Below, piece by piece: positions 21,135-24,100 of a stretch of 64,000 nucleotides of DNA. A model generated the notes under the pieces. The model had not been told where the DNA came from and ran no database searches. It was given only the letters and a program-made list of their open reading frames with translations. The translations under genes were made by a program, and so were the position numbers. Each line of letters begins with the position of its first letter. The stretch's first letter is position 1. The stretch comes from Actinernus sp. WN-2022 (Eukaryota; Cnidaria; Anthozoa; Actiniaria; Actinernidae): contig JAOWCC010001501.1 in NCBI GenBank assembly GCA_030867875.1, positions 25,045,036-25,109,035 on the forward strand. The letters are read 5' to 3'.

Positions 21135-24100
21135 CTACAATAACAAAACTTCTTTAATATTGTAAGTCTCACGTTTTCAAATGGATTTATATAACTTTTA
21201 ATTATAGTAACCTCGAGCTCCTGTCTTGATGCACACCGACCGTCTCACCATTATGGACATACCTTTGTACATGTAGATCACCATAGACATTGGACATACC
21301 TTTGTAGATCACCATAGACATTGGACATACCTTTGTTGATCACCATAGACATTGGACATACCTTTGTAGCAATATACTTCATGGTAGTGTTTCGTTCCAT
21401 ATAGTCTCCCTGCATAATCATTTTCTCTGTTTTAATGTATAATGTATGGTGACTATATGGAACGAAACACTACCATGAAGTATATACCCCTTTGTAGATC
21501 ACCATATACATTGGACGTATCTTTGTAGATCACCATATAAATTGGACATACCTTTGTAGATCACCATATATATTGGACGTACCTTTGTAGATCACCATAG
21601 ACATTGGACATACCTTTGTTGATCACCATAGACATTGGACATACCTTTGTAGCAATATACTTCATGGTAGTGTTTCGTTCCATATAGTCTCATTTTCTCT
21701 ACTGTTTTAATGTATAATGTAGGGAGACTATGGAACGAAACACTACCATGAAGTATATACCCCTTTGTAGATCACCATATACATTGGACGTACCTTTGTA
21801 GATCACCATATAAATTGGACGTACCTTTGTAGATCACCATATATATTGGACGTACCTTTATAGATCACCATATACATTGGACGTACCTTTGTAGATCACC
21901 ATATACATTGGACGTACCTTTGTAGATCACTGTATACATTGGACGTACCTTTGTAGATCACCATATATGTACATTGGACGTACCTTTGTAGATCACCATA
22001 TACATTGGACGTACCTTTGTAGATCACCATATACATTGGACGTACCTTTGTAGATCACCATATACATTGGACGTACCTTTGTAGATCACCATAGACATTG
22101 GACGTACCTTTGTAGATCACCATATACATTGGACGTACCTTTGTAGATCACCATATACATTGGACATACCTTTGTAGATCACCATAGACATTGGACGTAT
22201 CTTTGTAGATCACCATAGACATTGGACGTACCTTTGTAGATCACCATAGACATTGGACATACCTTTGTAGATCACCATAGACATTGGACATACCTTTATA
22301 GATCACCATATACATTGGACGTACCTTTATAGATCACCATATACATTGGACGTACCTTTGTAGATCACCATATACATTGGACATACCTTTGTAGATCACC
22401 ATATACATTGGACGTACCTTTGTAGATCACCATATACATTGGACATACCTTTGTAGATCACCATATACATTGGACGTACCTTTGTAGATCACTGTATACA
22501 TTGGACGTACCTTTGTAGATCACCATATACATTGGACATACCTTTGTAGATCACCATCTTCTCTAGTTTCCTTTTGCACGCCGCACGTTCAACTATCTTC
22601 TGATCAACAGTATTGGATGTGACGAGACGGTAGACAAGGATGGGTTTCGTTTGACCGATACGATGACATCTGTCCTGTGCTTGTAGATCGACCTGTGGGT
22701 TCTAGGAGGTTCAACATGAGAGCAGATGAGTAAGCTTTTGCACATTACAGGGGCGTGGGCAGGATTTTGCCAAGGGAGCCGAGGTCCCAACACGTAATTT
22801 CCTGCATTCTGAGGTAGGTTTATTTATAGTATTGTTTGATTACTATTCATTCTATGCACAGTTGTTTCTCTAACCCAAGTGGGGTCACGGGTACCCAGGA
22901 CCCCCTAGTTATATGCCCCTACATTATGTTTCTTATTTACTCCAATGCAGGGTTCTCCCAAAACGGGCATAGTAGGGGAAGACAAAAATTGAGCAGGGGG
23001 CATTTATTTCAAATTCAGGTTTCTACGGTAAGTAATAAGAGTATGGTAGAAAACTTGTAGGCGGTGTGGTCAAGTAGAGTACATGGAGAAAATTGACGGT
23101 GCTTCGGGAGAACTCTGCCAATGCTAAAGCTTAATGCTCAAAATGTTTACACAACTCGGCACAAGGTTCCAAAATGCTCGGAATAAAGCTAGTTGATACT
23201 TATTTGTTTTAGGACTTATTATTACTGTATGAAGTTACAAAGTCTTGTACTCTTATTCCATTAATCATCAGTCATTTTCTGTCGTACTGTAACTGTTGTA
23301 CTGTTTCTCGGACATCCACTACTCACAATCAACTCAAGGTTTAATGCTTTATTTGGAGTTTCAGTTTTCATTTTCTCTGAAAAGGTTTAAAGGTAACCCC
23401 AACCATTGGAACAAATTACCGTTAAATTGGTGATAATATTCTAAATTAAAAATTCGTTGAAATGAATATATTTTAGTTTATGAAAAAAATGTATACGAGT
23501 TATGAGCCATTTTGAGCTTTAGACTTTCGCAGACAATAGCTTGCAATCACACCGCGGCAAAACGTTACGCGCATGCGTATTTGCTATTCTTATCGGCGCG
23601 CGGCCGCCCCCAGTTTCCCGCGAAAACTGAAATGAAACAACAGGCACATACCCGTGATTTTAAAATTTCTGCTTAAAAGTATCCATTTGTGAACTGTTTT
23701 GTCAAAAAATAAGAAAACTACTTAAAAGCTAAGCCTAAGACTTTAACAGGTTGAAGTTTTCTTAATTTGTAATTCACTGTGAGTTTACTAAGTTATAAAA
23801 TTATTTACTAAAAAAGTTGAAACCCTCGGTAATTTGTATTTGATAGCAGAGCCTTCGTTCTTTTGGCCAGCGGAGCATACCGTTTTGCCGCGGTGTCGCT
23901 TGCAATATGAGTGCTGATAAAAAAAAATCTTCCAAATTGCTGATTGGCTTGTTTGAATTTTGGTCAGCCAATCGGGTCTCTCCCCGCTACGTCACTTACC
24001 CAGTCGCTGTCATAAATAATGACAGTGTCAGCTGCGGATAGATTAAGACCCAGTCCCCCTGCTCGTGTACTCAGTAGGAAAATGAAAACATCTGGATCCG

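Follow-up and report, generated by a model that had tools for sequence, protein, structure and literature searches.

The window, by which we mean the whole 64,000-nucleotide stretch of sea anemone DNA analysed here, carries the gene HELLS on its minus strand. A tblastn search with the Nematostella protein as query yielded 15 HELLS coding stretches between 20.8 and 46 kb and an additional weak match at 51755-51868, and among the 120 matches listed for the conceptual 840-residue protein (the best 120 of at least 7984 scored candidates), the top one was a gene-model protein of Nematostella vectensis, with 70% identity. The mitochondrial COX1 shows 97% identity to entries from Galatheanthemum, a genus of the order Actiniaria, and from Exaiptasia, in line with an actiniarian host. 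The exon that bears the tandem array described below is the second of the 15 coding stretches counted from the 3' end of the gene. The features surrounding the array are as follows (a slash marks the exon boundary):

22542-22701, minus strand: penultimate coding exon of HELLS, 160 nt, with the 3' end ...ATGGTGATCTACAAAG, placed by Nematostella and human homology
22536-22544, minus strand: true 5' splice site AAG/GTATGT, with the first intron base at 22541, placed by a gapless junction alignment and the Nematostella protein
21135-22541, minus strand: intron between the penultimate and the last exon, 1407 nt long when counted from the true donor but 128 nt when counted from the last decoy
20896-21134, minus strand: last coding exon of HELLS, through the stop codon, with the acceptor ...TTATTGTAG/GG

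The penultimate exon shares 51 of its 53 residues with the Nematostella gene-model protein, which, read by eye, also has the same residues at the exon end and junction. When the spliced HELLS junction was compared with human lymphoid-specific helicase (9z04), the alignment was free of gaps.

The earlier note had described a minisatellite that amplifies the 5' splice site of HELLS, its 31-bp unit consisting of the last 16 exon bases and 15 intron bases, repeated in register from the exon end. The number 19 that it gave to this exon is unproven. TRF reported a 31-bp unit in 34.5 copies at 21489-22557 and 3.4 and 3.2 further copies at 21254-21369 as two overlapping rows, which, together with the register and the motif counts, confirmed both the amplification and the composition of the unit. 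The sequence AAGRTAYGTCCAAT occurred 33 times against 0.01 expected, and AAGGTAYGT occurred 32 times against 1.14 expected; neither 33 nor 32 occurrences, respectively, were reached in any of 100 shuffles, so a chance origin of the donor repeats is rejected. There are 34 in-register donor positions, the true one and 33 downstream, of which 13 read GTATGT, 19 GTACGT and 2 ATACGT. The figure of about three dozen decoys given previously was therefore slightly high, although the large in-register set is real, and the description of the decoys as near-identical GTACGT or GTATGT sites holds for 31 of the 33 downstream positions but not for the two dead donors that read ATACGT; GT is kept at 32 of the 34 positions overall. 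Among the 33 units between donor positions, one is 35 bp, one is 37 bp and two contain a palindromic insert, features absent from the earlier note, as is the second HELLS copy. From the exon outward, the array consists of the following parts:

21856-22541, minus strand: exon-proximal block of 22 units (units 0-21), a run without a counterpart in the second HELLS copy described below
21583-21855, minus strand: first higher-order block, composed of I J K L E and holding one palindromic insert
21655-21765, no strand assigned: proximal copy of the palindromic, MITE-like insert, recognised by its dispersed genome matches
21300-21582, minus strand: second higher-order block, composed of I M N L E and holding the other palindromic insert
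21372-21492, no strand assigned: distal copy of the palindromic, MITE-like insert, in the second five-unit block
21245-21299, minus strand: terminal 37-bp unit and partial unit GTATGTCCATAATGGTGA, a boundary common to the second HELLS copy

The second block looks like a duplicate of the first. The insert itself is a near-perfect hairpin, and searches of the 1.39-Gb sea anemone assembly found it in at least 40 places, spread over 12 contigs; 3 lie within two HELLS arrays and 37 outside (the best 40 of 400 candidates). Every listed place matched in both orientations, as dispersed palindromic copies of a MITE do, and within the 275 kb compared the insert is confined to the two HELLS arrays. A single entry into the array, followed by copying along with the five-unit block, is probable. 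As a candidate for a known microRNA gene the insert was rejected, since all 10 of its 10 Rfam matches fell under the gathering scores and the element is dispersed.

The genome search placed a 142-base segment of the exon at two sites, with 100% identity, and the second HELLS copy lies 196 kb away on the same contig and the same strand. The 160-nt exon is identical between the two copies, a single residue separates their last exons, and one base and a 2-nt indel separate the array-free intron ends (128 versus 130 nt). The second array, however, has 10 donor positions (9 GT and 1 TT) against the 34 of the window, in an intron of 550 nt, making the array the largest difference within the exon-intron-exon stretch. 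In the genome search, a lower bound by which at least these two HELLS copies carry the array, no array was found outside HELLS, which disfavours a dispersed repeat family.

The only N run in the 275 kb compared, 100 N at 24942760 of contig JAOWCC010001501.1, lies between the two HELLS copies. The flanks are collinear in 189 matches, which account for 64% of the left part and 65% of the right part that was compared, at a mean identity of 95.06%, a mean raised by the identity filter that defines these matches (plus strand, at least 300 bases, more than 85% identity, shift of 150-205 kb); the compared parts end 17.7 kb before the gap, where the partner sequence would lie beyond the window, and omit about 43 kb after it. 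Collinearity extends into the adjoining DNA, as nine of ten matches of at least 400 bases (83.8-98.8% identity) were in place and the tenth lay elsewhere. Because of the 100-N gap and the collinear flanks, the two HELLS copies are probably two haplotypes whose haplotigs were laid end to end, and a recent tandem gene duplication is less likely on the same evidence; a genuine duplication in tandem, with a scaffold gap inside it, would nevertheless have the same appearance. The 34 and 10 donor positions would then be two length states of one array, with the gap as the ground for allelism. Both haplotypes in one assembly would double genes in any census. Elsewhere in the window, a 40-bp array at 6761-11140 holds about 110 copies compared with 20.8 in the second copy of the region, and is strongly length-variable.

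The order of unit types is ABCACADDEEFGACFCCCHBCD-IJKLE-IMNLE-O in the window and IEIPQLREO in the second copy, where K and N in the window and P in the second copy bear the insert. The 37-bp unit O closes both arrays, and the units flanking the insert are similar in the two, which makes it probable that the array arose before the two HELLS copies separated. The first intronic unit is of type A with GTATGT in the window and of type I with GTACGT in the second copy. This first unit of the second copy, on which its true donor lies, has the same sequence as units 22 and 27 of the window. The true donor has thus been exchanged while the exon is unchanged, an exchange open to this array because each unit carries its own exon end.

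One of the two findings that, by the earlier note, would overturn it was an array in related genomes older than the exon and lying outside it. The identical residues in Nematostella are protein-level evidence against this, and at that level they disfavour a coding end derived from an older array; the coding end appears to be older than the array. Since the exon end matches the Nematostella protein residue for residue, derivation of the unit from the exon is supported. The word ATGGTGA is present both in the exon end and in the distal flank GTATGTCCATAATGGTGA. Being common to both places, it could have primed the initial duplication; the distal ATGGTGA could also be a decayed unit.

The coding outcome of decoy use was read from the frame, in the second HELLS copy for donors 1-4 and 9 only. 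Use of copy 1 adds 31 nt and reaches a TGA 22 nt into the last exon, whereas use of copies 2-33 leads to one common stop within unit 2, so that all 33 decoys run into a stop. This agrees with the frame reading made previously, in which copy 1 led to a TGA in the next exon and later copies to a stop within the array; that stop is present, but it reads CAG TGA in the window, and the TGG TGA reported for it belongs to the second copy. The predicted truncation after helicase motif VI also proved correct, as the loss starts past the Helicase_C match, whose last residue is number 95 in a C-terminal HELLS piece of 211 residues. The distance from the stop in unit 2 to the exon junction is 9 nt for copy 2, 40 nt for copy 3, 71 nt for copy 4 and up to 1226 nt for copy 33. 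By the 50-nt rule for nonsense-mediated decay, copies 1-3 would yield a stable truncated protein and copies 4-33 would yield decay targets. The shared stop is a mechanical consequence of the 31-nt unit.

As a measure of donor strength, the duplex energy with the 5' end of U1 was calculated, giving -6.5 for AAGGTATGT and -6.1 for AAGGTACGT. The consensus gave -11.8, and the dead form AAGATACGT gave -0.2. The true donor has no clear U1-pairing advantage over the decoys. Since GTATGT and GTACGT are about equal in U1 pairing, a preference for the first donor would need to come from its position. Use of the first donor is most likely, backed by protein homology; strong selection for it, one of the proposals of the earlier note, is unproven. 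The retention of GT in 31 of 33 decoys fits recent homogenisation, and selection to keep decoys would fit too. A literature search for papers on competition between equal 5' splice sites found none.

Overall, these results support, with a probability of roughly three in four, the reading of the locus as an exon-boundary minisatellite of the "mirage" type, tolerated, self-restoring and variable in length, with little effect on splicing. The unit spans the exon/intron boundary in register over 34 positions. Such an array could have begun with duplication of a segment covering the exon end and the donor, perhaps primed by ATGGTGA, and could then have grown through unequal exchange or slippage. 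The gain or loss of whole units would recreate the same coding exon beside a donor of about equal strength; because each 31-bp unit holds both exon end and donor, array length can vary while the protein stays intact. The exon-proximal donor would most likely be used, through exon definition of the 160-nt exon, and any leak to later donors, which would lead to stops, is probably minor. In this account we infer allelism of the two copies, unequal exchange, use of the first donor and a low fitness cost.

Two reports describe "mirage" minisatellites in the amphioxus genes Adh3 and troponin C and in the globins BflGb6 and BflGb9, along with similar imperfect repeats in PGBD5; their unit spans the exon/intron boundary, many carry a splice signal, and splicing is reportedly unaffected (PMC3087553, PMC3902484). 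The boundary-spanning tandem layout is common to these arrays and the HELLS array, although the hosts, a lancelet and a sea anemone (Actiniaria), and the genes are different. We regard the HELLS array as the same kind of structure and do not claim common descent, the host being a non-mechanistic criterion. BflGb6 is reported to have 6 and 3 units in two haplotypes (PMC3087553, PMC3902484), so that the 34 donor positions of the HELLS array compare with 3 to 6 units there. Unlike the amphioxus mirages, the HELLS array was invaded by a transposon-like element that was later co-amplified. No cnidarian boundary-spanning minisatellite was found in the open-access literature, judged by titles and the starts of abstracts, and as far as open-access listings show the HELLS array extends such minisatellites beyond chordates to a new phylum. 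Having both length states in a single assembly makes the locus a natural test case for the spliceosome's choice among many near-identical tandem donors, and the rebuilding of exon end and donor by whole-unit changes suggests why an array can persist in a conserved gene.

Repeat donors behind a coding exon are also a feature of human IFI6 (6-16), where two downstream minisatellite units reportedly serve as donors and three mRNAs result (PMC4526556). A comparable use of the first few repeat donors in HELLS, yielding stable C-terminally truncated isoforms, is an unlikely alternative to a tolerated array. It would agree with the nearly equal pairing of the donors with U1 and with the escape of copies 1-3 from nonsense-mediated decay expected under the 50-nt rule, but such isoforms would lack the conserved C-terminus. 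The IFI6 unit is 12 nt, so the reading frame is kept, whereas the 31-nt HELLS unit makes all 33 decoys truncate the protein. Amphioxus Adh and troponin C, with their boundary-spanning repeats, are moreover without reported aberrant mRNA (PMC3902484).

We consider it improbable that the distal donors, from copy 4 onward, act as a poison-isoform rheostat in which nonsense-mediated decay lets array length tune the dose of HELLS. Copies 4-33 do place the stop 71 to 1226 nt before the junction, and with 34 versus 10 donor positions the dose could vary by allele, but the two copies give no sign of copy-number constraint and the stop follows mechanically from the unit length. While the geometry and the decoy consequence put forward in the earlier note stand, its further suggestions of a regulated poison switch or a U1-binding sponge are without support; the two copies of the region differ widely in donor number, and published similar arrays reportedly leave splicing undisturbed (PMC3087553, PMC3902484). 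An allele-specific version, in which array length sets the loss of HELLS transcripts, is more speculative and quite improbable. HELLS acts in DNA methylation of repeats, so that expansion could feed back on a repeat-restraining factor.

There is also little reason to regard the array length or the second copy as a product of mis-assembly. The scaffold gap between the HELLS copies would suit that explanation, as would the second "gene" being probably a haplotig and not a paralogue; however, both in-register arrays have ordered, non-identical variants and share a distal boundary, making collapse or chimaera an unlikely source. Least credible is a U1-binding sponge or local recruitment platform, for example one suppressing premature intronic polyadenylation or raising transcription, for although GT is retained at 32 of the 34 positions and the pairing energy is about -6 for either GT form, no single site reaches the strength of the consensus (-11.8), the second copy has just 9 GT sites, and one locus could hardly titrate an abundant snRNP.

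The same HELLS gene also contains ordinary minisatellites, five further arrays that lie between coding stretches. Under the filters applied, a coding hit is touched by only one of the six merged arrays, while 91 to 1684 bases separate each of the rest from the nearest one, as measured to tblastn hits and not to exact exon ends. For a complex array at window 33308-34999, which consists mostly of 12-, 14- and 26-bp units and lies in a HELLS intron, that distance is 227 bases. Also inside a HELLS intron are open frames on the plus strand at 24426-24710 and 26500-27320, which presumably resemble reverse-transcriptase pieces. Two 75-bp arrays of one unit family are present at window 1-1975 and 3977-5327. 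Another contig of the assembly has three COX1 copies spaced about 16 kb apart, which probably means that a circular mitochondrial genome was assembled repeatedly.
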